Shown in pieces: positions 2,250 to 29,323 of a stretch of 29,515 nucleotides of DNA; the stretch's first letter is position 1, and every line of letters begins with the position of its first letter. Location: IMG/VR virus record IMGVR_UViG_3300045919_000305, positions 64,001 through 93,515 of that record. One strand, 5' to 3'. The position numbers were made by a program, and so were the translations under genes. The notes beneath the pieces are model-generated. The model did no database searches. It was not told the origin of the DNA and worked only from the letters and a program-made list of their open reading frames with translations. This stretch comes from a virus.

Positions 2250-3056
2250 ATGGAATTTTCAAAAGCGCATCAAGATGAATGCAACCGTTACGCCCTAAAA
2301 AATCGCCTTGCCAATTACAAGGTGCAAGCCGAGCGAATTAATAACGGCACTGAACGCCGAGTTATCGGACCAATTCACCCCGCCCCGCTAACATGGCGCG
2401 AAGCGCGCAAAGAATACCCGGCCAATAAAATCAGGCCGTTAGCTCTCATAAAAGCCGCGAATACCCGCGCATTAAACCAAGACAAAGACGCGCTTTACTT
2501 AGACGCATTCAAAGACATGCCCGGCTATGTTGCAGAACCGAAAGACGCTGATAAATGTTGCCGCATGGACTATACCGGATGGTTTACAACCGAGGACGGC
2601 TGGACAGGCGAAACGTTAATCGGCGTCGTCGTGTCAATCCGCCACCCGCAAAAGATAAACCCAGAAACAGAAGGCCATATATTTTATATGGCAGGCACTA
2701 AGCACTCAGATTGGGACGGCGTGACTGTTTACACCGGCGAACTGTTCGAAGAAGAAAGGGCCGCGGCCAGACGAGCCGACCAGATCGCAGAAAGGGAAGC
2801 GGAACAATGCAGGGAAGAGGATCAAAAATATCAGGCACAAGAAAAGATAGCCGAACTTAAAAAGGAATTCCACGAGCTGAACGTTCAAGCGCTGGAAGTT
2901 ATTAAAGACGCGCGAAACGCTTCCGGTTTATTCCCGGCGTCAATATGCGAACTGATTAAAAGCAAGCTGGACGAAACTTTAGAACGCAAGCGCGATATAT
3001 TGCGCGGCGTTAAAGAGTTAACAGATACGCCGTGGATCGTTAGCGAATGGCGCTAA
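2250..3056 (+). CDS. Hypothetical protein with C-terminal coiled coil (268 aa)
   Basis: The ATG is preceded by AGAGGA about 10 bases upstream, within leader repeat A. The first ~160 residues are mixed and contain a Trp/Gly-rich stretch (TGWFTTEDGWTGETLIG, about 109-125), suggesting a compact beta-rich fold. Residues about 165-215 are strongly charged (EEERAAARRADQIAEREAEQ) and should form a long helix or coiled coil, possibly for oligomerisation. I do not recognise the family. It is the first of a run of small same-strand genes of similar style. Confidence 0.7.
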   Translation: MEFSKAHQDECNRYALKNRLANYKVQAERINNGTERRVIGPIHPAPLTWREARKEYPANKIRPLALIKAANTRALNQDKDALYLDAFKDMPGYVAEPKDADKCCRMDYTGWFTTEDGWTGETLIGVVVSIRHPQKINPETEGHIFYMAGTKHSDWDGVTVYTGELFEEERAAARRADQIAEREAEQCREEDQKYQAQEKIAELKKEFHELNVQALEVIKDARNASGLFPASICELIKSKLDETLERKRDILRGVKELTDTPWIVSEWR

Positions 3057-3103
3057 GCTAAACAAACCCGAACATTTGAACCAAACTTAAAGAGGATAGG
3101 AAA

Positions 3104-3418
3104 ATGAGCTTAACAATCAGCATAGACGTAGATTTAAGAATCCGCGACCTACTTGAAACAGTGGCGAGGGATAGCGCCCTGATACAAAAAGAATCAAGAA
3201 AGCTAGATAGTAAAATCAGAGAGCAAGCGGAAACAATTAAGGGTTTAACCGAATCCAAAAGCCGCGAATTAGAATTGCTCAACACTTTAAGCGATATTCT
3301 CTTTATCATCAACGAAGATAAAGACGGCTCTTTTTTCCTTTGTGAAGAAGCCGCGGAAACGTTAAACGATGCGCGCGAGTTAGTAGCCCGCGTTCAAGCG
3401 TTAAGGGGGATTAAATGA
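3104..3418 (+). CDS. Small coiled-coil hypothetical protein (104 aa)
   Basis: An AGAGGATAGG ribosome binding site precedes the ATG. The product is almost wholly helical, with heptad-like spacing of Leu/Ile from about residue 10 to 65 and a second helix near the C terminus. There are no catalytic or metal-binding motifs. Its stop overlaps the start of the next gene by four bases, indicating translational coupling. Its function is unknown. Confidence 0.65.
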   Translation: MSLTISIDVDLRIRDLLETVARDSALIQKESRKLDSKIREQAETIKGLTESKSRELELLNTLSDILFIINEDKDGSFFLCEEAAETLNDARELVARVQALRGIK

Positions 3419-3621
3419 GCCCTGAATTATTAAAAGCACTTTGTGCAGTCTATGAACTAGCCCAACAAAACGTAAACGACTTTGAAACAGACGGCGAACA
3501 AGAACTCGAAGAAATGTTAATACAAAATGAAAAGGATTTAGAAACGGTTTTAGCTTTCATTCGTAAGCACCAAAAGGAAAGGCTAGAGTTAAAAACCGCT
3601 ATTGATGGGGTTATTCAATGA
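3415..3621 (+). CDS. Small acidic helical hypothetical protein (68 aa)
   Basis: It starts with an ATG overlapping the previous stop, with AAGGGGG just upstream, and ends by overlapping the next start. The product is acidic and helical (DFETDGEQELEEMLIQ region), with no recognisable motif. It lies between two coupled genes, so it is probably translated as part of the same polycistron. Confidence 0.6.
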   Translation: MSPELLKALCAVYELAQQNVNDFETDGEQELEEMLIQNEKDLETVLAFIRKHQKERLELKTAIDGVIQ

Positions 3622-3857
3622 GCCCCTCAGAACTCAAACAAAACTATTTAACCAATAACCCAAACGGATTATTTTTTAACGCTAAGAACATGAAATTCGC
3701 CGGCGATACGATGATGAATTACGGAGTCAGGCACGCCGCTATAAACGGCGGCGTGGAATGTTGGGAACTCTACCGCAAGCGGCCGGTTAAGCACGGCTTA
3801 CAGACAAGCGCTTATTTCGATAAGCAAACATTTAAAAAGTTACGTAAAGAGGATTAA
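3618..3857 (+). CDS. Conserved small phage/mobile-element protein (79 aa)
   Basis: It overlaps the upstream stop by four bases. The sequence NPNGLFFNAKNMKFAGDTM followed by NYGVR and VECWELYRKRPVKHG resembles a short protein I remember from many phage, plasmid and integrative-element gene clusters. No function is established for it as far as I know. The conserved aromatic and basic residues suggest nucleic-acid or protein binding, but that is inference. Confidence 0.7.
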   Translation: MSPSELKQNYLTNNPNGLFFNAKNMKFAGDTMMNYGVRHAAINGGVECWELYRKRPVKHGLQTSAYFDKQTFKKLRKED

Positions 3858-3860
3858 GCA

Positions 3861-4121
3861 ATGTTTTTAAGCAAACAAGAAAAAAGATTAGAAGTTGCTA
3901 AACAGGTTGACATTCAATTGTTGCGGTTACGAACCGCCGTGTTCCAAAAAATTGAAAAAGCGTTTTTAAGTAACGCTATACCCGATGACTGGTTAGAAGA
4001 CGACAACGCCGTTTTAGCCCTGGCAATCATGGAATCATTACATAAAGACGCGGCTTTAGATTTGAAACGCTTTACCAAGCGAACAGCGAAGGAAATAAAA
4101 AACTTACATTTGTTTTTATAG
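3861..4121 (+). CDS. Small hypothetical protein (86 aa)
   Basis: AAGAGGA lies about eight bases before the ATG. The product is basic at its N terminus (SKQEKRLEVAKQ) and largely helical, with no known motif. It sits three bases after the preceding stop, in the same operon-like run. Confidence 0.6.
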   Translation: MFLSKQEKRLEVAKQVDIQLLRLRTAVFQKIEKAFLSNAIPDDWLEDDNAVLALAIMESLHKDAALDLKRFTKRTAKEIKNLHLFL

Positions 4122-4146
4122 CCCAACCACCCATAAGGAAACTACA

Positions 4147-4338
4147 ATGAACACTCAAAAAACCAAAGATCAAACCCAAACAACTAACGCTTTCTTTTTA
4201 ACAGACGATGACAGCGACTTAACCTTTATCGCGGCAGACGTAAGCGTTACGCGCCCCGGATCGTTTGAATTCGCAGGAATTGAAGCCCAGCGTATCACCC
4301 GAGATTGGGACATATCGGATGCTTACGGCTGGAATTAA
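4147..4338 (+). CDS. Small acidic hypothetical protein (63 aa)
   Basis: AAGGAAACTACA precedes the ATG. The product has a polar, Thr/Gln-rich N terminus followed by an acidic segment (LTDDDSDLTFI). Its stop codon lies inside the start of leader repeat A copy 2. No family is recognised. Confidence 0.55.
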   Translation: MNTQKTKDQTQTTNAFFLTDDDSDLTFIAADVSVTRPGSFEFAGIEAQRITRDWDISDAYGWN

Positions 4339-4398
4339 AACCCGAACACCGAAGCCACGGACGGCCTGCTACCAATTTATTTTAACTTAACGAGAGGA
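4333..4398 (+). repeat. Leader repeat A, copy 2
   Basis: This is the second copy of the repeat seen at 2174-2240, with the same AATTAAAACCCGAACACC, AGCCACGGACGGCCTGC and TTTTAACTTAAC blocks. Here it includes the stop codon of the upstream gene and the AGAGGA ribosome binding site of the gene at 4406. Confidence 0.8.
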
Positions 4399-4405
4399 TA
4401 GAAAA

Positions 4406-4585
4406 ATGGCCGAATATACAGTAGTTTGGAAAATAGACATTGAAGCAAACAGCCCGCGCGAAGCGGCGGAGCTGGCCTTAAAAATTCAGCGCGATAAAAA
4501 AAGCACGGCGACTGTATTCGATGTTGCAGAATTCGAAGGATCGGACGACGATTACGAAATGATTGATTTATCGGAGGAAGTTTAA
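4406..4585 (+). CDS. Conserved small mobile-element protein (59 aa)
   Basis: The ATG is preceded by GAGAGGATAGAAAA in leader repeat A. The product begins MAEYTVVWKIDIEANSPREA and continues with LALKIQRDKKSTATVFDV. That pattern is common in short proteins of plasmids, integrative elements and phages that I remember, with a beta-alpha-beta look and no known activity. The length is typical for those proteins. It ends four bases before the next gene. Confidence 0.65.
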   Translation: MAEYTVVWKIDIEANSPREAAELALKIQRDKKSTATVFDVAEFEGSDDDYEMIDLSEEV

Positions 4586-4588
4586 ACC

Positions 4589-4840
4589 ATGTGCGAACTA
4601 ACCGAAACAAACAAAGCGCTAGACGTTTATCTAGCAGCCCAAGCCGAACGCGACAAGTTATGGGACGCTATAGAAACCACCGAAGACGTGTATATCGCCG
4701 AACGCGCAGAAAAGGAAGCGCTAGAACAGGTCCAGCGTGCGTTTTATACCGATACTCAGACTATAAACAACTTGGCGGATTGTATGACAGTCCCCTTAAA
4801 AAGCTTTATGCGCATGACTGGACGGGAGCCAAGACGATGA
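4589..4840 (+). CDS. Small helical hypothetical protein (83 aa)
   Basis: TCGGAGGAAG lies upstream of the ATG inside the end of the preceding gene. The product is helical and charged through residue ~50 (AQAERDKLWDAI, AERAEKEALEQV). Its stop overlaps the start of the gene at 4837. A competing frame over the same bases gives an unnaturally Arg-rich sequence and was rejected. Confidence 0.6.
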   Translation: MCELTETNKALDVYLAAQAERDKLWDAIETTEDVYIAERAEKEALEQVQRAFYTDTQTINNLADCMTVPLKSFMRMTGREPRR

Positions 4841-6382: not shown

Positions 6383-6570
6383 ACGTTTTGTGCCTTTTCA
6401 TAGCGTGCGCGGTTATCGTCTTTTTCTTGACAACCTTTGCCACGGACGCATCGAATAACTGTTCGCAGTTTAGCAACCCAACGCGCCACGAGCTGTGTGG
6501 ATCGAACCTACATCCAGACCTCGTTAAGCCGAACACCGCATTCGAAAATCTTCTGGAGGATTTGAAATGA
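6358..6570 (+). CDS. Small membrane-anchored protein with extracytoplasmic Cys pair (70 aa)
   Basis: GACGGAGAAAAGCG precedes the ATG. Residues about 8-27 (LNVLCLFIACAVIVFFLTTF) form a membrane anchor or uncleaved signal. The remainder is polar with two Cys at about 35 and 47 that could form a disulfide if exported. The last codons overlap a copy of leader repeat B, and the stop overlaps the next start. Its role is unknown. Confidence 0.6.
   Translation: MREYLKALNVLCLFIACAVIVFFLTTFATDASNNCSQFSNPTRHELCGSNLHPDLVKPNTAFENLLEDLK
6528..6560 (+). repeat. Leader repeat B, degenerate copy 3 (inside coding sequence)
   Basis: GCCGAACACCGCATTC with a following TTCTGGAGGA resembles copies 1 and 2, but here it lies within the end of the gene at 6358-6570. 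It still ends in the ribosome binding site of the next gene. Confidence 0.55.
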
Positions 6571-6752
6571 CCGCTAAACAAAAGAAAGTAATGTTTTTTG
6601 GAACAATAGCCATAGGTTTGTGGCTATTCGGCGTCTACGCTTTAGCCGGAGTAAAAGGGGTAATACTAGCCGCCTGTTCGATGGCCGCAGGGATACAGCT
6701 TTTGTCCTGTATACACGACTATTTAACCCATGATAGTCAGTCGAGCCGCTAG
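6567..6752 (+). CDS. Small two-segment membrane protein (61 aa)
   Basis: CTGGAGGA lies upstream of the ATG, which overlaps the previous stop. There are two hydrophobic segments, residues about 8-27 (VMFFGTIAIGLWLFGVYALA) and 30-47, separated by a short turn with one Lys. It is the last of a tandem set of membrane microproteins. Function is unknown. Confidence 0.6.
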   Translation: MTAKQKKVMFFGTIAIGLWLFGVYALAGVKGVILAACSMAAGIQLLSCIHDYLTHDSQSSR

Positions 6753-6921
6753 ACGAAAAGCCGAAATGCACGGGCAAGCCTATTACGAAACAGGTAAGCC
6801 CTGTAAGCACGGGCATGTTACACTACGCAACACCGAACACCGGCACTGCCGGGAATGTAAACGATTACAATCCGCTGCGCAACGCGCGGCTTTGAAACTA
6901 CAGGAACAAAACCCATGTTAA
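6730..6921 (+). CDS. Small zinc-finger-like protein (63 aa)
   Basis: It starts within the end of the preceding gene. The motif PCKHGH at 24-29 with HCREC at 39-43 gives C25/H27/H29 and C40/C43, as in the treble-clef zinc knuckle found at the start of some HNH or endonuclease VII-like phage proteins. The nuclease core is absent, so DNA or RNA binding is likelier than cleavage. The N terminus is basic. Confidence 0.6.
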   Translation: MIVSRAARRKAEMHGQAYYETGKPCKHGHVTLRNTEHRHCRECKRLQSAAQRAALKLQEQNPC

Positions 6922-7136
6922 ACCATTTCACTGAAGAATTTTTTAAACAACTCTTCGTCCACCATACGTCCGAAGTTGTTTGTAAGCAGATAAAACGCCA
7001 CTGCCACCATAATTCAGTTAACCCTAAAGATATTTTTACTACAGAACAATTGCTGGCAGCGTTAACCGATGCCGAGATCATTGCCGAATTCGAAGCGCGT
7101 AACCTGGACGATCATTGCTGTGATCCGTATAGTTAA
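6915..7136 (+). CDS. Small His/Cys-rich hypothetical protein (73 aa)
   Basis: CAGGAACAAAACCC precedes the ATG, which overlaps the end of the previous gene. The product contains a His/Cys-rich stretch (KRHCHHNS, about 28-35) and ends DDHCCDPYS, so it may bind a metal. No family is recognised. Confidence 0.55.
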   Translation: MLNHFTEEFFKQLFVHHTSEVVCKQIKRHCHHNSVNPKDIFTTEQLLAALTDAEIIAEFEARNLDDHCCDPYS

Positions 7137-8062: not shown

Positions 8063-10069
8063 ATGTCAGAATTCAATACTCTAAAAACTAAAGCCCAAGC
8101 TCGGTTTAACGAGCTGTCTCAGCATGAAATGTTTTTGGTCGATCTCGGCCGAAACGACATCAACGACGCCTATCTAGCTGCGTTACCTGAAGAAGTCCGC
8201 CAAGAGCATAATTGCTCATGTTGCCGACACTTTTTACGCGACATTGGTGGCGCAGTAGCGATCATTGACAACGAAGTGGAAACCCTATGGAACTTCGAGG
8301 TAGACTACCCTTATTCCGAAGTGCCAAAAGCACTTAAAAAGATCGTATTGGATGCGATCGAGAATGCCAAAATAGGGCGACTGTTGCGTTTCGATACGAG
8401 AAACGTCGGTATCGATCACAATTTAAAAGTGACCGGCCCTGATTCTTTTATCCGTTACGAGCATTTTCATTTATTGCTACCTAACGACAAGCTGGTTACG
8501 CCAGGAAAAAGCATAGCAAGCGTTAACGGCCTATTTACCGCTGCGGTAGAAACCACACAGCGGGCACTAAGTGAGCTGACAATGGACGCAGTGGATACCG
8601 TGTTAGAGTTAATTAATCAGAACAGCCTTTATCGTGGCGCTGAGTTTAAAAACACGTTGGTCAGATTCCGGGCAGCTAAAAAAGAATACGACAAGTTGAG
8701 CGGATTATCCGCAGCACTTTTTGCCGTAGAGCATTACAACAAAGGTTTCAACATCCGCAATTCGGTAATCGGTACGTTACTCGATGACTTGTCGTCTGGT
8801 GTTGAGCTGGATCGCGCTGTGCGTTCTTACGAAGCGAAAGTAGCGCCGTCTAATTACAAACGACCTACCGCGTTAGTGACTAAAGGCATGATCGAAACCG
8901 CAGAAAAAGAAATTAAAGCGTTAGGGTTATTAAATTCGTTATACCGCCGTTATGCGGTGCCTACGGATATCCCAGTCAGCAAAGTGCTGTTTGTTAACCG
9001 CGCTGTCAGGATGCCAGCATTCGACGCATTTGCCGCGTTAAAGGAAGAAGTGCCGGTATCGGCTAAGGAATTCTCCCGCGTGGAAGAAGTGCCGATTGAC
9101 ACATTCTTAACCAGCGTATTGCCGACCGCTACCAGCTTGGAAGTATTACTGGAGCGCCCGCTTGCAAGTAACTTCATGAGTCTGGTCGCACCAGTCCACG
9201 AAGATGCGCCGCATTTGTTCCAATGGGATAACGGAATCTCTTGGGCGTACCAAGACGGTTTATCGGATTCCGTAAAGGGACGGGTAAAAGCAGCGGGCGG
9301 ATCAGTAGAAGGGGAACTCCGCGTTTCTTTGGAGTGGTTTAACTTGGATGATTTAGATCTTAGTGTTGTTGAGCCGTCAGGGAATAGAATTTGTTACAGC
9401 AATAAGGTATCCCCTGTATCGGGAGGTTTCCTGGATGTAGACATGAATGCTGGCGATTTGAAATCTCGCGAAGCAGTAGAAAACATCGTGTTCAAAGATA
9501 AAAATAAAATGCGCGATGGCGTTTACACCGTCTTTGTCCATAACTTCAGGAAGCGTGAAAGCATCGACGTAGGTTTTAATTTAGAAATCGAGTGCAGTGG
9601 AGAAACCTTGTTACTTGGCCAAGAAACACCTGTTGGCCACGGCGAAAGCATTAAATCAGTGGATATCCACTACTCCAAAGAGCGCGGTATTACGGAAGTA
9701 GTTAAGCACATTGGAAGTAAACAAACACCGTCTAAAGAAATATGGGGGTTGTTTACTAACCGTTTTCAGCCGGTATCAATGGTGCTGAACTCACCGAACT
9801 ATTGGGAAGGCAACGCGAAAGGCAACCGCCACACGTTCTTTATCTTGGAAGGGACTAAAAACCCGAACTCGCCGCGCGGTATTTTCAACGAGTATTTGAA
9901 ACCCGAGTTGTTGGCGCATAAGCGGGTGTTTGAACTACTCGGCAGTAAAATGATAGTGGAGGACTCTGAGCAGCAATTGTCAGGCTTAGGCTTCTCGTCC
10001 ACTCAACGAAATTCAGTTACGATCAAAGTAACCGGCAAAACTACACGCGTTATTAAAGTTAATTTTTAG
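8063..10069 (+). CDS. Large conserved phage protein with DUF2135-like domain (668 aa)
   Basis: AAACTGGAGAAAATTA precedes the ATG. The N-terminal part has a CSCCRHF motif near residue 51 that could bind metal. Residues about 415-520 (ELRVSLEWFNLDDLDLSVVEPSGNR, DVDMNAGDLKSREAVENI, YTVFVHNFRKR) match the DUF2135/YfaP-like beta domain in DxDLxVxxPxGxxI layout. The C-terminal part carries HTFFILEGTKN and LSGLGFSSTQRNSV, which I remember as invariant in phage homologues. It is usually followed, as here, by the ~120-residue partner at 10081. The function is unknown; the abundance of such genes in early or middle phage regions suggests a host-interaction or replication-associated role. Confidence 0.75.
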   Translation: MSEFNTLKTKAQARFNELSQHEMFLVDLGRNDINDAYLAALPEEVRQEHNCSCCRHFLRDIGGAVAIIDNEVETLWNFEVDYPYSEVPKALKKIVLDAIENAKIGRLLRFDTRNVGIDHNLKVTGPDSFIRYEHFHLLLPNDKLVTPGKSIASVNGLFTAAVETTQRALSELTMDAVDTVLELINQNSLYRGAEFKNTLVRFRAAKKEYDKLSGLSAALFAVEHYNKGFNIRNSVIGTLLDDLSSGVELDRAVRSYEAKVAPSNYKRPTALVTKGMIETAEKEIKALGLLNSLYRRYAVPTDIPVSKVLFVNRAVRMPAFDAFAALKEEVPVSAKEFSRVEEVPIDTFLTSVLPTATSLEVLLERPLASNFMSLVAPVHEDAPHLFQWDNGISWAYQDGLSDSVKGRVKAAGGSVEGELRVSLEWFNLDDLDLSVVEPSGNRICYSNKVSPVSGGFLDVDMNAGDLKSREAVENIVFKDKNKMRDGVYTVFVHNFRKRESIDVGFNLEIECSGETLLLGQETPVGHGESIKSVDIHYSKERGITEVVKHIGSKQTPSKEIWGLFTNRFQPVSMVLNSPNYWEGNAKGNRHTFFILEGTKNPNSPRGIFNEYLKPELLAHKRVFELLGSKMIVEDSEQQLSGLGFSSTQRNSVTIKVTGKTTRVIKVNF

Positions 10070-20903: not shown

Positions 20904-21143
20904 ATGAGTTCAGTTACAATAAGCCCCCGTTTGATCGGACGACCCGTAGAAGTAAGCACTTATCGCACGGTGGATGGAAAGGCCGTTAGGACAAAAGAAG
21001 CTACCGGACGGTTTCACGCTTTTGGTATTGATTACGAAATGTTCGATAACACAGCGCAGTTTACTACGGCCATTGTTGAGCTGACTGACGGGACTTTGAG
21101 AAACGTACCTGTACGCCTTATCAAGTTTCTGGATCGCGAATGA
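20904..21143 (+). CDS. Hypothetical protein (79 aa)
   Basis: TTCTGGAGAGAATAA precedes the ATG. The product looks like a small beta-rich domain (VEVSTYRTVDGKAVRTKEAT, FTTAIVELTDGTLRNVPVRLI) of the kind seen in small beta-barrel folds. No family is recognised. The stop overlaps the next start. Confidence 0.6.
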   Translation: MSSVTISPRLIGRPVEVSTYRTVDGKAVRTKEATGRFHAFGIDYEMFDNTAQFTTAIVELTDGTLRNVPVRLIKFLDRE

Positions 21144-23004: not shown

Positions 23005-25396
23005 AATCATTTTATGGTCCGACACAGAAACTTCCAGCACCTGTGACTTAGGTTCTGCGGGTACCGCGAAGTACGCTGAGCATCCGTCAACACGGGTTCA
23101 GCTTTTTTCGTTTGCTTTTAATGACAACCCCGTGGATCTTTGGAGCCCTGAAGACGGCGAAATCATGCCTGCGGATCTGGAAGAAGCCCTCGAAGACCCT
23201 TCGGTAATTCTACAATTTCATAACGCCTTTTTTGACCGGTCTGTGCTGATCGCGACTAAAAGGCACTTACGCCGGTTATCCCGCCGCAAAAAGGATTGGG
23301 ATTTCAGCATTGAGCGATTTCGTTGTTCGATGGCGCAAGCTCTATCCCACGGCTTACCGGGAGGGTTGGAGAAACTGGGGCATATCTTAGGTATCCGTGA
23401 GGACGCTAAGAAGATCGCCGATGGCCATCGGTTAGTTCGACTATTCTGCAAGCCGTGCGGTTATATGCCCGACGGTAAAACCTATAAATGGAACACGCCG
23501 GAAACGCACCCCGAGGATTGGGCAAAGTATAAGGAATACTGCATTAGCGATACCGGTTCCATGAGAGAAGTAGTTAAGAAGATCCCGCGTTGGAATTACC
23601 CAGGCAACGCGCATGAGGTTGAATTATGGCGTATGGATCAAACAATTAATAATCGTGGTATGTTTATCGACTTGGATCTGGTAAACGCCGCCATGAACGC
23701 GATTACCGTAACGCAAGCGCAATTATCCTGCTCCACTAAGGAAATGACCGGCGGCAAAGTACAGAATGCTACACAGCGGGATGAAATGCTCAAACACATA
23801 TTGGCGGAGTTCGACATTGAGCTACCCAACATGCAAAAAGCGACGCTTAATCGCTTAATCGAAAACGAGGATACGCCGCCGGCTTTACGCGATTTGCTGG
23901 AAGTCCGACTAAGCGCCTGTACCACGTCAACGGCTAAGTATAAACGGATCGTGCAGGCTACCTGTGAGGATGGGCGATTAAAAGGCACAATCCAGTTTGC
24001 GGGTGCTTCACGCACATTGCGGGATGCGGGGCGCATTACCCAAGTTCAAAATTACCCATCACGAGGATTAATGAGCGTTAAAGATACCAAATTTGGCATT
24101 GAAGCGCTTAAGTATGGCATGGAGGAAATCTTTGATCTGGACGTGATGTGGTTAACACAATCGGCGTTACGTTACACGATCGTAGCGCCGCCCGGTAAAA
24201 AACTCTTAGTTTCCGACTTAGCGAATATCGAAGGGCGGGTATTATCGTATTTGGCAGGGGAGGAATGGAAATTAGAAGCTTTCCGCGCTTATGACGCGGG
24301 CACCGGTCCGGATCTTTATAAACTGGCATACGCAAAAGCCTTCGGTGTTAAGGTTTCTGATGTGACCAAAGAGCAAAGAAACTATGTCGGCAAAATTATG
24401 GAATTGGCTTTTGGATATGGTGGGGCAAGTGCTGCGGTAGTTACTTTCGCTTTATCCTTTGGTTTAAAACTATCCGATTTGGCCGAACAGATTATTCCTA
24501 ACGTACCTGATACCGTGCTAAAAGAGGCGCAAAGCTTCTTTGGGTGGTTGGACGAGCAAGACATAACCAGCGCTCGGGCAAAAGCGAAAAAAGCGGGCAC
24601 CCCGAAGGAATGGTTTCAATACTATGAGCGTAAGCGGACGGGAGGCTTACCCATCGAGCAGTTTATCGCCTTTGAAAGTTTGAAACGTTTATGGCGTGCG
24701 GAACATCCGGCTACGGTGGCTTTCTGGAAGGATACCGAGAGCGCGTGCCGTGACGCAATCGACGTGCCGAATAAAAGTTTTTATTTCGGCAACGGATGTT
24801 ATGCCCGCCGATCGGGTAAATGGGTTCGGTTGGTGTTACCCAGCGGCCACGCACTTTGCTATCCGGGTATGGAAGTTGGCGGCGGCACCAAGGTATTTAA
24901 GATCACACAAAGCGGCCCTAAAAAGCACTATTTCGTCACGGAAGAAGGCGCTGAGAAACCTAATACGGGTTTTGAGACGATAGAAGAGGCACGTAGAAGT
25001 ATAGACAGTAAGGCCGACTCTGGGAACATGACTAAGGTGCCCTTAACGGATTGCTTGGAAGCGTATCGGATATCTAGTGGAAGTTCTGGTTTGAGGTTTA
25101 AAGGCGTTCACCCAATTTCTAAAAAGTGGGGTTGGATCTATACTCATGGGGGCCGCCTATCAGAAAATTTATCTCAGTCTTTCGCCCGTGACATTTTCAA
25201 ATATGGCCAACTTGAAGCGGAACGCCAAGGGTATCACGTTATTCTTCCAGTGCATGACGAGTTGGTTAGCGAAGTGCCGGACACGGACGAATATACGATC
25301 CACCACCTCGAAGGTATTATGGCGACCGTACCGCCGTGGGCTAAAGGCATTCCGCTGGCGGCCGAAGGCTTTGCAGATTACGCTTATCATAAATAA
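22997..25396 (+). CDS. polA: Family A DNA polymerase with 3'-5' exonuclease domain (799 aa)
   Basis: The exonuclease domain is N-terminal: D9/E11 (SDTET), a NAFFD motif with D80, and Y181-x3-D185 (YCISD), the DEDDy set. The polymerase domain shows motif A SDLANIEGR (D407, E412), motif B from R461 through K466 and Y474, and motif C VHDELVSEV (H753, D754, E755). In motif B the residue four after the conserved Lys is Leu rather than the usual Phe/Tyr, as in a phage subgroup I remember with ELAxGYGG. It should be the replicative polymerase, working with the primase-helicase and strand-binding protein of this window. Its last 13 codons and the following promoter are duplicated at 26032. Confidence 0.95.
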   Translation: MPEIILWSDTETSSTCDLGSAGTAKYAEHPSTRVQLFSFAFNDNPVDLWSPEDGEIMPADLEEALEDPSVILQFHNAFFDRSVLIATKRHLRRLSRRKKDWDFSIERFRCSMAQALSHGLPGGLEKLGHILGIREDAKKIADGHRLVRLFCKPCGYMPDGKTYKWNTPETHPEDWAKYKEYCISDTGSMREVVKKIPRWNYPGNAHEVELWRMDQTINNRGMFIDLDLVNAAMNAITVTQAQLSCSTKEMTGGKVQNATQRDEMLKHILAEFDIELPNMQKATLNRLIENEDTPPALRDLLEVRLSACTTSTAKYKRIVQATCEDGRLKGTIQFAGASRTLRDAGRITQVQNYPSRGLMSVKDTKFGIEALKYGMEEIFDLDVMWLTQSALRYTIVAPPGKKLLVSDLANIEGRVLSYLAGEEWKLEAFRAYDAGTGPDLYKLAYAKAFGVKVSDVTKEQRNYVGKIMELAFGYGGASAAVVTFALSFGLKLSDLAEQIIPNVPDTVLKEAQSFFGWLDEQDITSARAKAKKAGTPKEWFQYYERKRTGGLPIEQFIAFESLKRLWRAEHPATVAFWKDTESACRDAIDVPNKSFYFGNGCYARRSGKWVRLVLPSGHALCYPGMEVGGGTKVFKITQSGPKKHYFVTEEGAEKPNTGFETIEEARRSIDSKADSGNMTKVPLTDCLEAYRISSGSSGLRFKGVHPISKKWGWIYTHGGRLSENLSQSFARDIFKYGQLEAERQGYHVILPVHDELVSEVPDTDEYTIHHLEGIMATVPPWAKGIPLAAEGFADYAYHK

Positions 25397-25456
25397 TTTT
25401 ACATAGCTAATAGCATGTGCTATACTATTAGCTCGTTTTTACTGGAGAGAGTAGTG
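25358..25456 (+). repeat. Direct repeat, copy 1: polymerase 3' end plus promoter and start codon
   Basis: The stretch from the codons for AAEGF..DYAYHK through the promoter, ribosome binding site (CTGGAGAGAGTA) and start codon recurs 674 bases downstream at 26032-26130 with scattered substitutions and no gaps. The two copies bracket the genes at 25454 and 25963. Confidence 0.85.
25398..25433 (+). promoter_or_regulatory. Promoter TTTACA-17-TATACT with palindromic operator
   Basis: TTTACA (25398-25403), a 17-base spacer and TATACT (25421-25426) with an extended TGC. TAGCATGTGCTA (25411-25422) overlaps the -10, and AGCTAATAG...CTATTAGCT (25405-25433) is a perfect 9-bp inverted repeat around it. 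It serves the GTG-start gene at 25454. Confidence 0.75.
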
Positions 25457-25966
25457 AGCAGAGAAGTTAGAAGAGTGCCTAAAGGTTGGCAACACCCTAA
25501 AAGCGATGAGGGTGAATTTATTGGCCTTTCGGAATTATCGGGGCCGTTTAAAGAGATAGACGACGAATGGAACGAAGGCCGTGCTAAGTGGCTGGAAGGG
25601 TACAGCAGAGACTACAGCACTCCGTTATCAGAAACATGGGTAAAAATAGACCCTGAATATGCTCGTTTACGGTATACCGACTATTGCGGCCGCCGCCCCA
25701 GCCCCGATGATTACATGCCTGAATGGGGGGCCGAAGAGGCTACGTGGTTCATGATGTATGAAACGGCATCAGAGGGCACGCCCATAAGCCCTGCTTTTGA
25801 AACACCTGAAGAACTCGCTAGATGGCTGACCGATACAGGGGCTTCGGCCTTTGGTAAAAGTACGGCTTCTTATGAAGCGTGGTTGCGGGTATGTAACGGG
25901 GGGTACGCACCTTCTATTGTGGTTACGAATGGCGTCATATTAAATGGAGTGGAGGCTTTGTCGTGA
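25454..25966 (+). CDS. Conserved phage hypothetical protein (170 aa)
   Basis: A GTG start with CTGGAGAGAGTA upstream was chosen; a longer frame from 25415 would begin inside the promoter palindrome. The sequence SREVRRVPKGWQHPK, DYMPEWGAEEATWFMMYETASEGTP and TPEELARWLTDTGASAFG matches a protein type I remember from many unrelated phages, of unknown role. It lies inside a duplication of the polymerase tail and promoter, which suggests late insertion into this locus. Confidence 0.8.
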   Translation: MSREVRRVPKGWQHPKSDEGEFIGLSELSGPFKEIDDEWNEGRAKWLEGYSRDYSTPLSETWVKIDPEYARLRYTDYCGRRPSPDDYMPEWGAEEATWFMMYETASEGTPISPAFETPEELARWLTDTGASAFGKSTASYEAWLRVCNGGYAPSIVVTNGVILNGVEALS

Positions 25967-26070
25967 AGCTTCTAAAAATACTCGCCATAGGGATTTTTAC
26001 CACAGGCGCAGCTCTGTTGTCGCTTAAAATAGCGGCTGAAGGGTTTAGCGATTACGCTTATCATAAATAA
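25963..26070 (+). CDS. Chimeric membrane microprotein ending in a duplicated polymerase tail (35 aa)
   Basis: A GTG overlaps the upstream stop, with GGAGG seven bases before it. The product starts KLLKILAIGIFTTGAALLSL, a single hydrophobic segment, and ends AAEGFSDYAYHK, nearly the same as the polymerase C terminus (AAEGFADYAYHK). The shared tail comes from the duplicated segment at 26032. It may be a real microprotein or an accident of the duplication. Confidence 0.5.
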   Translation: MKLLKILAIGIFTTGAALLSLKIAAEGFSDYAYHK

Positions 26071-26130
26071 TTTTACACAGCCAATAGCATATGCTATACT
26101 GTTAGCTCGGTTTTACTGGAGAGAGTAATG
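26032..26130 (+). repeat. Direct repeat, copy 2: polymerase-tail codons plus promoter and start codon
   Basis: It is colinear with 25358-25456 at an offset of 674 bases, from the AAEGF codons to the start codon (ATG here, GTG in copy 1). Substitutions include synonymous changes in the shared tail codons and one Ala-to-Ser change. Confidence 0.85.
26072..26107 (+). promoter_or_regulatory. Promoter TTTACA-17-TATACT with perfect palindromic operator
   Basis: TTTACA (26072-26077), a 17-base spacer and TATACT (26095-26100), preceded by TGC. TAGCATATGCTA (26085-26096) is a perfect 12-bp palindrome over the -10. It is followed by GTTAGCTC. It serves the Prs-like, NAMPT-like and thymidylate synthase genes. 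Confidence 0.75.
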
Positions 26131-26988
26131 ATTAAATTAACCTACCGCAGCCATTTACAGGTCGTGACCACTGAGATCACTGAATTCCTGACATTTTCAG
26201 GCGGTGAAGAGCACGTCCGCTTGGCTATTGAGTTCGATCCTGGTTCGCCTATTACTATTACCGCACGGCTTACCTCTTCTCAGTGGATTATGCGACTGTT
26301 CTTGGTAACGGATGCACTGGATGGAATGGGCGCTAATAGAAAAGATATCGGCTTAGTTATCCCTTATTTGCCGTATGCCCGCCAAGATCGGGTGTGTTCC
26401 CCTGGAGACGCGTTTAGCTTACGGGCTTTCGTAAGGTTGATTGCCGCGCAAGGCTACAGCCAGATCGCTTGTTTAGACATTCATAACGGAGAAAGCTTAA
26501 AGCTATTTTGGAACCACGACATACGGGTGCACAACCAGACGAGTACGATTTTTTCTCGGTATTTCAAAGTCCCTGAAATAACGCACGTTGTAGCACCAGA
26601 CAAGGGAGCAGGTAATCGGGTAAGCGCGTGGCACGGCGCCATGAAAGCCGATAACCCCGAATTAAAATACCTCCAGATGGATAAAAAACGGAATCCTGCT
26701 ACCGGGGAAATAACAGGGCTTAGCTTACCGTACCTTGACCACGCAGACAAATTAACAGGCGCCTTTTGTCTAATCGTTGACGATATTTGCGATGGCGGCC
26801 GCACTTTCATAGAAGCGGCTAAGTTACTGAAAGGGAAAGGGGCTAAACGGGTAGAGCTTTTTGTATCCCACGGGATATTTAGCAAAAGATTCGATGAATT
26901 ACTGTCGCCAGAGGCTATCGATTTTATCCACACAACCGATTCGATTTGCGTTAGCGAACACCCAAGATTGAGAGTATTCAAGCTATAA
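26128..26988 (+). CDS. prs: Ribose-phosphate pyrophosphokinase-like enzyme (PRPP synthetase or ADP-ribose pyrophosphate synthetase) (286 aa)
   Basis: The protein has the two-domain phosphoribosyltransferase-type fold of PRPP synthetases: YARQDRVCSPGDAFS (83-97) is the catalytic flexible loop, LDIHNGES (116-123) the pyrophosphate-binding region, APDKGAGNRV (156-165) the SPDxGG-equivalent, and VDDICDGGRTF (217-227) the PRPP-binding loop. At 286 residues it is slightly shorter than bacterial Prs (~310). It should use ATP to pyrophosphorylate ribose 5-phosphate or, if it is the NARP1 enzyme Adps, ADP-ribose. The NAMPT-like gene 14 bases downstream is its obvious partner. The family is certain, the exact substrate is not. 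Confidence 0.85.
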   Translation: MIKLTYRSHLQVVTTEITEFLTFSGGEEHVRLAIEFDPGSPITITARLTSSQWIMRLFLVTDALDGMGANRKDIGLVIPYLPYARQDRVCSPGDAFSLRAFVRLIAAQGYSQIACLDIHNGESLKLFWNHDIRVHNQTSTIFSRYFKVPEITHVVAPDKGAGNRVSAWHGAMKADNPELKYLQMDKKRNPATGEITGLSLPYLDHADKLTGAFCLIVDDICDGGRTFIEAAKLLKGKGAKRVELFVSHGIFSKRFDELLSPEAIDFIHTTDSICVSEHPRLRVFKL

Positions 26989-27002
26989 TAACTGGAGAAA
27001 AT

Positions 27003-28484
27003 ATGTCTTTCGCACCCCACCAAAAAGATGCCTATAAAATAGGCCACCCCCACCAGTACCCTAACGGCACTACCGAGATTTACAGTAATCTTACCGCGCG
27101 TAGCGGTAAGTTAAGTAACGTACCGGGGTCAAAAGGCGTTGTATTCGTCGGACTACAACACTTCATTTTGGATTACCTAATTGTTGAGTGGGATGAATCG
27201 TTTTTCTTTCGCCCTGAAGGAGAGGTTATCTTTAAGTATCAACGTCGGGTTTCTAAGATCCTAGGTTATGAAGTCGATGTATCCCGCATGCTCGCGTTGC
27301 ACCGACTGGGGTATTTGCCTGTGAAAATAAAATCGCTTCCCGAGGGCAGTTTTGTCCCTTACGGCGTTCCGATGTTAACTATCCGTAACACCTTGCCAGA
27401 GTTTTACTGGGTTACGAATATGCTGGAATCTGTTATGTCCGCAGAACTTCACCAACCTATTACCACGGCGACTATGTACTGTGCATACCGGCAGTTATTG
27501 ACAGATTACGCTAAGAAGACGGGCGCGCCATTGGATTTCGTGCAGTTTCAAGCCCATGATTTTTCTTATCGGGGCATGGCCGGCCGTCATGCGGCAGCGA
27601 TTTCGGGCTTTGCTACCTTAGCTTGCGGTAACGTGGGGACAGATACCATTGCAGCGATCGACATTGCCGAAGACTTTTACGACGCAGATGCGGACCAAGA
27701 GCTAATCGGCTGTTCGGTTAATGCGACTGAGCATTCCGTTATGTGTGCCGGAGGTATGAATAACGAGTTAGAAACATTCCGACGTTTACTGGAAGATATC
27801 TACCCCGGTAAGATAGTTTCAGTAGTTAGCGATTCATGGGACTTCTGGGGCGCAGTAACAAAAATACTCCCTGCCTTAAAAGATTTAATTTTGTCTCGGG
27901 AAGGTAAACTGGTGATTCGTCCGGATTCTGGCGACCCAGTGGACATTATTTGCGGCACAGATTACGAGCAACCGCAATGGCCAGAGGGCAAAGGGCTAAT
28001 CCAATGTTTGTGGGATACCTTCGGCGGTACTGTTAATGAGAAGGGCTACAAAGTTCTAAACCCTAAAGTCGGCGCTATCTATGGGGATTCTATAACGCTA
28101 GAAAGGGCGCAAGAAATCTTGTCGGGCTTGGAGGCAAAAGGTTTTTGCAGCAGTAATATCGTTTTTGGCGTTGGCAGCTACACGTATCAGTTAGTAACCC
28201 GCGACACGCACGGTATGGCAGTAAAAAGCACTCATGCAGTCATTAACGGCGAAGATACCCCCATTTTTAAAGACCCTAAAACGGGTGATGGCTTAAAGAA
28301 ATCAGCTAAGGGTTATTTGCTAGTTGTTACTGATACTAAAACCGGCGAATACGTTTTACAAGATCAAGTCTCTCGTCGCCAGGAAAAACACGGCTGTTTA
28401 CGGACTCGTTTTAGTAACGGTACGACGTACAACAAAACGACATTAGCTAAGATCCGTGCGCGGGTAGCGAAGAGGTTTGAATGA
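27003..28484 (+). CDS. nadV: Nicotinamide phosphoribosyltransferase-like enzyme (NAMPT/NadV, or Namat of NARP1) (493 aa)
   Basis: CTGGAGAAAAT precedes the ATG. Residues align with human NAMPT from memory: D9-x-Y11-K12 near the start, H185-D186-F187 and R190 (HDFSYRG), GTDT with D214 for the nicotinamide amide, ATEH with H244, SVVSDSWD, and VIRPDSGDP with R306 and D308. The length (493) matches the family. It should join nicotinamide to PRPP, giving NMN; in the NARP1 system an annotated NAMPT relative instead joins nicotinamide to ADP-ribose pyrophosphate, giving NAD+ directly. The gene overlaps the thymidylate synthase start by four bases. No NMN adenylyltransferase is seen in the window. Confidence 0.9.
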   Translation: MSFAPHQKDAYKIGHPHQYPNGTTEIYSNLTARSGKLSNVPGSKGVVFVGLQHFILDYLIVEWDESFFFRPEGEVIFKYQRRVSKILGYEVDVSRMLALHRLGYLPVKIKSLPEGSFVPYGVPMLTIRNTLPEFYWVTNMLESVMSAELHQPITTATMYCAYRQLLTDYAKKTGAPLDFVQFQAHDFSYRGMAGRHAAAISGFATLACGNVGTDTIAAIDIAEDFYDADADQELIGCSVNATEHSVMCAGGMNNELETFRRLLEDIYPGKIVSVVSDSWDFWGAVTKILPALKDLILSREGKLVIRPDSGDPVDIICGTDYEQPQWPEGKGLIQCLWDTFGGTVNEKGYKVLNPKVGAIYGDSITLERAQEILSGLEAKGFCSSNIVFGVGSYTYQLVTRDTHGMAVKSTHAVINGEDTPIFKDPKTGDGLKKSAKGYLLVVTDTKTGEYVLQDQVSRRQEKHGCLRTRFSNGTTYNKTTLAKIRARVAKRFE

Positions 28485-29323
28485 AACCGTATCATGATTT
28501 ACTTCAAAAAATCCTAAACAAAGGTGAAAGATCAGAGGATAGAACAGGCACTGGGACGATCTCACTCTTCGGTGAACGAATGGAGTTCGACTTAACAAAA
28601 GGTTTCCCTTTATTAGCGACCAAGTTCACCCCCTTTAATCTCGTTAAGGCAGAACTGCTTTGGTTTCTTTCAGGCAGCACAAATAATGAAGACCTGCGCG
28701 AGTTAAACGGGAACGATAAGCCTACAATTTGGGGGGAGTGGGCTACGGAAGATGGGGATCTCGGGCCGATCTATGGTGAACAATGGCGGTCATGGAGTTC
28801 TGATTACGATCAAATATACGTTTTGGTGCGTGGGTTAGTTAAACAGCCGAAAAGCAGAAGGCATGTTGTAAGCGCGTGGAACGTTTTGGATTTACCTAAC
28901 GAAAACCACACCGCTCAGCAGAACGTAAAGGATGGTCGGATGTCTTTAGCGCCCTGCCACATGATGTTCCAATGCTATGTCGATAAAGACAACGGTTTGC
29001 ATCTACAAGTCTATCAACGTAGCTCGGACTGTTTCTTGGGTGTACCCTTTAATATCGCCAGTTATGCACTCTTGACACACTTATTGGCGGCACAGACTGG
29101 GTTAGTTGCAAAACGTTTAGTCTGGGTTAGTGGCGATACCCACGTCTATATCAATCATATCGATCAGGTTAATAAACTTCTTAGACGTGATCCTGAAAGG
29201 CACCAATTACCGAGACTGATGTTGAGTCCGGGAATTGAGTCTATCGACGACTACACTATGGGCGATATTATCCTTGACGGATACAGCCACTTCGCAGCAA
29301 TTTCAGCACCGGTGTCTGTATGA
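28481..29323 (+). CDS. thyA: Thymidylate synthase (280 aa)
   Basis: The folate-dependent ThyA family is clear: R21, catalytic C159 in LAPCHMMFQ, R180-S181 with D183 in YQRSSDCFLGVPFN, N191, and H221/Y223 (GDTHVYINH), all at a constant offset from E. coli ThyA. Asn191 marks dUMP rather than dCMP use, so it is not dCMP hydroxymethylase. The tail ends APVSV, like the conserved closing APVxI. It makes dTMP from dUMP for phage replication and ends the metabolic trio with the Prs-like and NAMPT-like genes. Confidence 0.95.
   Translation: MKPYHDLLQKILNKGERSEDRTGTGTISLFGERMEFDLTKGFPLLATKFTPFNLVKAELLWFLSGSTNNEDLRELNGNDKPTIWGEWATEDGDLGPIYGEQWRSWSSDYDQIYVLVRGLVKQPKSRRHVVSAWNVLDLPNENHTAQQNVKDGRMSLAPCHMMFQCYVDKDNGLHLQVYQRSSDCFLGVPFNIASYALLTHLLAAQTGLVAKRLVWVSGDTHVYINHIDQVNKLLRRDPERHQLPRLMLSPGIESIDDYTMGDIILDGYSHFAAISAPVSV

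Follow-up and report, generated by a model that had tools for sequence, protein, structure and literature searches.

The locus lies within the window, the 29,515-nt stretch of DNA analyzed here, which comprises bases 64,001-93,515 of a 93,515-bp virus record. Bases 1-127 of the record recur as an exact direct terminal repeat at bases 93389-93515. From this 127-bp repeat we judge the record to be probably complete and its map to measure about 93,388 bp; the repeat may itself represent the assembly overlap of a circular map. Phage records searched by megablast with 9.5 kb of window sequence gave no match. The features of the locus, in window coordinates, are:

26032-26131, + strand: second copy of a 100-nt duplication; it shares 89% identity with the first copy at 25358-25457
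26072-26100, + strand: promoter TTTACA-N17-TATACT with extended -10, preceding the operon; 26072 is the start of the -35 hexamer
26085-26108, + strand: 24-nt motif TAGCATRTGCTATACTRTTAGCTC, the last of three genome copies
26128-26988, + strand: adps-like gene, 286 aa, Prs superfamily; predicted ADP-ribose pyrophosphate synthetase
27003-28484, + strand: namat-like gene, 493 aa, NAMPT superfamily; predicted nicotinamide ADP-ribose transferase
28481-29323, + strand: thyA, thymidylate synthase, with a 4-nt overlap with the namat-like stop codon

The adps-like and namat-like open reading frames are both intact, are separated by a 14-nt gap, and are each preceded by a plausible ribosome-binding site. 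The first-pass annotation had described adjacent Prs-like and NAMPT-like genes with this gap, and the family profiles agree with it. The 286-aa protein belongs to the ribose-phosphate pyrophosphokinase families (TIGR01251, 144 bits against a cut-off of 113; phrog_619, E 3e-67), and the 493-aa protein belongs to the NAMPT/NAPRT families (phrog_448, E 4e-190; NF006629, 521 bits against a cut-off of 405). PADLOC gave only weak matches, to ShosT and PsyrT, which we ascribed to the shared phosphoribosyltransferase domain and set aside. Because thyA overlaps the namat-like stop codon, the transcription unit probably includes at least three genes, with thyA carried on the same transcript as the pair. 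We know of no part played by thyA in phage NAD+ reconstitution pathway 1 (NARP1), the system to which the first-pass annotation had tentatively assigned the two genes.

NARP1 was described in 2024. In this pathway, Adps produces ADP-ribose pyrophosphate (ADPR-PP) and Namat produces NAD+ (PMC12774641). The chemistry and the anti-defense effect were shown for Bacillus phage SPbetaL1 (PMC12774641) and genetically for ICP1 NrsAB (PMC11559045). ICP1 NrsAB is needed for plaquing on Vibrio cholerae that carries Nezha, an NAD+-depleting system (PMC11559045), and a gene pair from mycobacteriophage DyoEdafos also yields NAD+ in vitro (preprint PMC13232231). The generic family models, taken at their word, name our two proteins differently, as a PRPP synthetase and a NAMPT. 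Such a pair would carry out ordinary salvage, passing NMN to the host NMN adenylyltransferase. NAMPTs (KVP40-like V09, Xcc, human) and PRPP synthetase do share the folds and core chemistry of the window proteins.

The namat-like protein groups with the characterized Namats of SPbetaL1 and ICP1 (NrsB). In a 43-row tree it is split with 100/100 support from the NAMPT side, which held V09 (KVP40-like), phT4A, CcrBL9, Methylosinus, Cupriavidus and Xcc NAMPT. The rows closest to it come from two metagenomic phages (66-67% identity), and among characterized relatives ICP1 NrsB is the nearest, at 52%. Among solved structures, the best sequence relatives are 9w5x and 9w5w (481 bits), followed by 9ke8 (403), mammalian NAMPT (at most 227) and Xcc NAMPT (200). 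9W5X and 9W5W are Namat with nicotinamide and with NAD+, respectively (PMC12774641), and over the 432 residues compared the crystallized chain matches the SPbetaL1 gene with 100% identity. An AF2 model of the window protein (pLDDT 92.9, pTM 0.91) superposes on 9w5w with a Z score of 48.7 (1.4 Å over 473 residues), on Haemophilus ducreyi NadV with 46.7, and on human NAMPT with 43.4. Structure prediction and alignment, the means suggested in the first-pass annotation for telling the two enzyme types apart, thus both place this protein with Namat rather than with true NAMPT.

The namat-like protein matches 28 of the 30 Namat-diagnostic columns and keeps the catalytic core (in SPbetaL1 numbering Asp13, Tyr15, Phe189, Arg192, Asp215, His245, Arg306 and Asp308). 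All of the nicotinamide- and ribose-contact residues checked are also kept: Asp13, Tyr15, Phe189, Ser190, Arg192, Asp215, Ala242, Arg306, Asp308, Gly360 and Asp361. The Namat helix motif GSx-phi-x-phi-x-phi-TRD is present as GSYTYQLVTRD, with the aromatic Tyr393 at the third position. The NAMPTs compared, at 27-34% identity, have GG(G/A)LL where the window protein has GSYTY, and this replacement argues against ordinary salvage.

The adps-like protein likewise falls outside the true-Prs group, with tree support of 100/99. The true-Prs set comprised six proteins (E. coli, Bosea, B. subtilis and three archaeal). Ten columns were taken as diagnostic, each with a state that prevails among 91 Namat-linked Adps-like proteins but occurs in none of the six Prs; the window protein scores 7 of 10 and each Prs scores 0. 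The 91-protein set was chosen by Namat linkage, which makes the score partly circular; it is anchored by ICP1 NrsAB and by the SPbetaL1 pair, which has been tested. The clearest difference is in the substrate loop, which reads D/S/N-T-G/A-G-T-(L/I/M) in Prs (DTGGT-L/I/M in PRPP synthetase) and D-G-G-(R/G/A)-T-F in Adps. In the window protein it is DGGRTF, with Phe227, and the canonical Prs ribose-5-phosphate loop D-T-G/A-G-T is absent. The loop Phe occurs in 91/91 Namat-linked Adps-like proteins versus 0/6 Prs, and Gly replaces Thr in 87 of the 91. As a caution, the window protein differs from most Adps proteins at residues 106, 120 and 122 (HNGE for HSxV). A fold comparison with the Adps model gave Prs structures only; with no Adps structure among the top matches, it cannot tell the two types apart. 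The tree and the Adps-type loop, which take up the alignment suggested in the earlier annotation, both set this first protein apart from true Prs.

In Prs, this loop holds the 5′-phosphate of ribose 5-phosphate. Loss of the phosphate-binding Thr would fit a substrate that carries AMP on its 5′ phosphate. The alignment thereby suggests a testable basis for Adps specificity, described as obscure in PMC12774641: the phosphate-loop Thr has been lost and an invariant Phe gained. With both proteins outside the Prs and NAMPT groups at full support, and with the Prs loop replaced, we regard ordinary salvage as very improbable.

The two genes also travel together. With the adps-like protein as sole query, 80 viral loci were retrieved. 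A Namat-like gene lies downstream in 76 of these and upstream in 2, and a contig end interrupts the remaining 2; the gap has a median of 56 nt. A chance origin of the adjacency can be rejected, since the two genes are paired in 78/78 loci uncut by a contig end. In the loci of eleven relatives no other gene matches the window genome, the leftover matches being open frames antisense to this pair. The pair thus behaves as a cassette that moves as a unit between unrelated phages. One related viral locus (L045) has a partial extra Namat-like frame (6434-6994) between the Adps-like gene and the intact Namat-like gene (8229-9710).

According to the first-pass annotation, no NMN adenylyltransferase was visible, and finding such a gene just outside the window would have pointed to NARP2 or salvage. 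The statement holds for the genome as a whole: a PF01467 search of the entire 93,515-bp record found no member, and the same search was positive in 14/14 control genomes. The absence of this enzyme is supportive of NARP1 and not decisive, because a plain NAMPT route could run through the host enzyme. It does bear directly on NARP2, in which a NAMPT and an NMN adenylyltransferase come from the same phage. The NAMPTs of that type (CcrBL9, beside NadM, and KVP40-like V09) also lie in the other clade; no observation speaks for NARP2, and the chance that this locus represents it is close to negligible. Of the companions found near other NARP1 loci, the macro domain PF01661 was not found in the genome, with controls positive, and the RyR-domain cADPR glycosidase PF02026 had no match in the genome and none in the controls either, which makes this negative uninformative.

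The weak point of the NARP1 reading is the adenine-stacking clamp of the namat-like protein. The preference for ADPR-PP has been ascribed to the helix motif GSx-phi-x-phi-x-phi-TRD (SPbetaL1 Phe392 and Tyr396) together with a loop residue, which is Arg40 or else Lys/Tyr followed by a stacking residue; the position-7 aromatic of the motif and the clamp-loop stacking residue are described as typical, not universal (PMC12774641). The window protein keeps one of the three stacking sites, Tyr393 at the SPbetaL1 392 position. The other two are aliphatic, with Leu397 for Tyr396 and Lys36-Leu37 for Arg40. ICP1 NrsB shares the clamp-loop Lys but has a Tyr after it and a Tyr at 396. Of the 89 Namat-clade sequences in the retrieved loci, 9 lack an aromatic at 396, Kuttervirus and Pakpunavirus included, and for this reason we do not take the position-7 aromatic as defining NARP1. 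In six of the nine, the loop too has neither Arg nor an aromatic: the window protein, L040, L072, Kuttervirus pertopsoe, Pakpunavirus Ab1 and phiPsa267. An Adps-like gene is close by in 6/6 of these, which argues that the weak clamp is a recurrent state and not decay in the window phage.

A weak clamp would suit ordinary salvage. It would also suit a dual-use module, in which a true Adps is combined with a clamp-poor Namat that accepts ADPR-PP and PRPP to about the same extent and so serves both defense reversal and general salvage. The two aliphatic sites, and the same clamp state in six Adps-linked enzymes, speak for dual use, and SPbetaL1 Namat itself still accepts PRPP in vitro (PMC12774641). 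However, single substitutions in SPbetaL1 Namat lower NAD+ synthesis only 1.3- to 1.7-fold, and the 392 position, which is part of the strongest double mutant (PMC12774641), is kept in the window protein. We consider dual use unlikely, though a good deal less so than plain salvage; it overlaps with NARP1, and the two readings are not exclusive.

NadV of Haemophilus ducreyi (plasmid pNAD1; PDB 9ke8, a crystal structure with NMN) is the other relative that must be weighed here, as a working NAMPT that would favor ordinary salvage. NadV (L118:256-1743) has a Namat-clade sequence, branching with SPbetaL1 Namat (99/89), and is 45% identical to the window protein. Nevertheless it makes NMN in E. coli, where intracellular NMN rose 7-fold when nicotinamide was given (PMC6095924). 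Belonging to the clade is therefore not enough to define the substrate. NadV differs from the window protein in lacking the GSY aromatic (GAQTYQRNTRD), and no Adps gene is listed in the pNAD1 stretch compared. The discriminating features are Tyr/Phe at 392, the GS pair and an Adps partner, and the window has all three. The aromatic at 392, present here and absent from NadV, weighs against salvage. NadV, long known as a NAMPT and without the adenine-stacking residues, is possibly a Namat turned NAMPT. The two enzymes offer natural variants for probing the ADPR-PP preference of Namat, with the clamp-poor, Adps-linked enzyme described here on one side and clamp-less NadV as the opposite control.

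We conclude that the gene pair is very probably a NARP1 module, with its chemistry and anti-defense role predicted by analogy to characterized relatives. Clustering, nearest structures, the Namat motif and catalytic residues, the Adps-type loop, the linkage and a genome without NMN adenylyltransferase all support the tentative NARP1 assignment of the first-pass annotation. The Adps-type enzyme would transfer pyrophosphate from ATP onto ADP-ribose, giving ADP-ribose pyrophosphate, and the Namat-type enzyme would join this product with nicotinamide, a direct route to NAD+ that needs no NMN adenylyltransferase. In infected cells whose TIR, SIR2 or SEFIR defense effectors have cleaved NAD+ to ADP-ribose and nicotinamide, the pathway would restore it and so undo a common suicide defense of bacteria. 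A caution comes from a relative: in PaP1 infection NAD+ drops despite the presence of related genes (PMC12846349). The locus adds a new NARP1 module from a phage genome without a near match in the phage record collection. It shares with SPbetaL1 NARP1 (PDB 9w5w/9w5x; PMC12774641) the gene pair and its order, the catalytic residues, the GSx...TRD motif and the fold, at 49% identity for the second protein and about 26% for the first; it differs in the first-protein loop (SFGGTF in SPbetaL1) and in being followed by thyA. Gene order is also shared with ICP1 NrsAB (orf228/orf229; anti-Nezha NAD+ regeneration; PMC11559045), whose first-protein loop is CDGAASF.

The pair had been described as having its own promoter, and this was borne out. 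A general promoter scan performed at chance level (6 sites found versus 6.3 expected from shuffles) and was replaced by an exact-motif search. The exact pattern TTTACA-N17-TATACT with extended -10 has two occurrences in the window against an expectation of none, and in the copy before the operon the -35 hexamer begins exactly at 26072, the position given earlier. The promoter at 26072 includes the motif TAGCATRTGCTATACTRTTAGCTC, which has exactly three copies in the 93.4-kb genome (20858-20881, 25411-25434 and 26085-26108), each of them directly preceding a ribosome-binding site with its start codon. A 12-nt palindrome, TAGCATRTGCTA, makes up the left half of the motif and overlaps the extended -10. 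This placement suggests that the palindrome TAGCATATGCTA is a candidate operator, and the three copies mark a candidate regulon of NARP1 and two function-unassigned genes (20904-21143 and ~25454-25966).

Combining the clamp and the promoter, we tentatively propose a minimal-clamp form of NARP1 with one stacking residue. In this proposal, which is possible but which we would not expect to hold in full, the Namat reads ADPR-PP unlike the SPbetaL1 enzyme, or makes no distinction between PRPP and ADPR-PP, so that the published clamp rule would be incomplete; the operon would be switched by a phage regulator at the palindrome over the -10 box, in common with the two function-unassigned genes.

The duplicated 100-nt block contains the 3′ end of the DNA polymerase gene, the promoter and the ribosome-binding site. 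Because the polymerase 3′ end lies inside the copied block, the 35-aa open reading frame at 25963-26070 terminates in a copy of the polymerase C-terminus. The duplication looks like the scar of a recombination event that may have imported the NARP1 genes or, alternatively, the gene lying between the two copies. Elsewhere in the window, positions 1-2015 encode part of a protein of ~805 aa (gene start near genome base 63,598); its C-terminal region has matches to DNA methyltransferase families and to PADLOC mad2. Outside the viral loci, a 632-kb Bacteroidota plasmid (Persicobacter; L121) carries an adjacent Adps-like/Namat-like pair at ~2501-4769, with an intact clamp motif, GSFTYQYNTRD.
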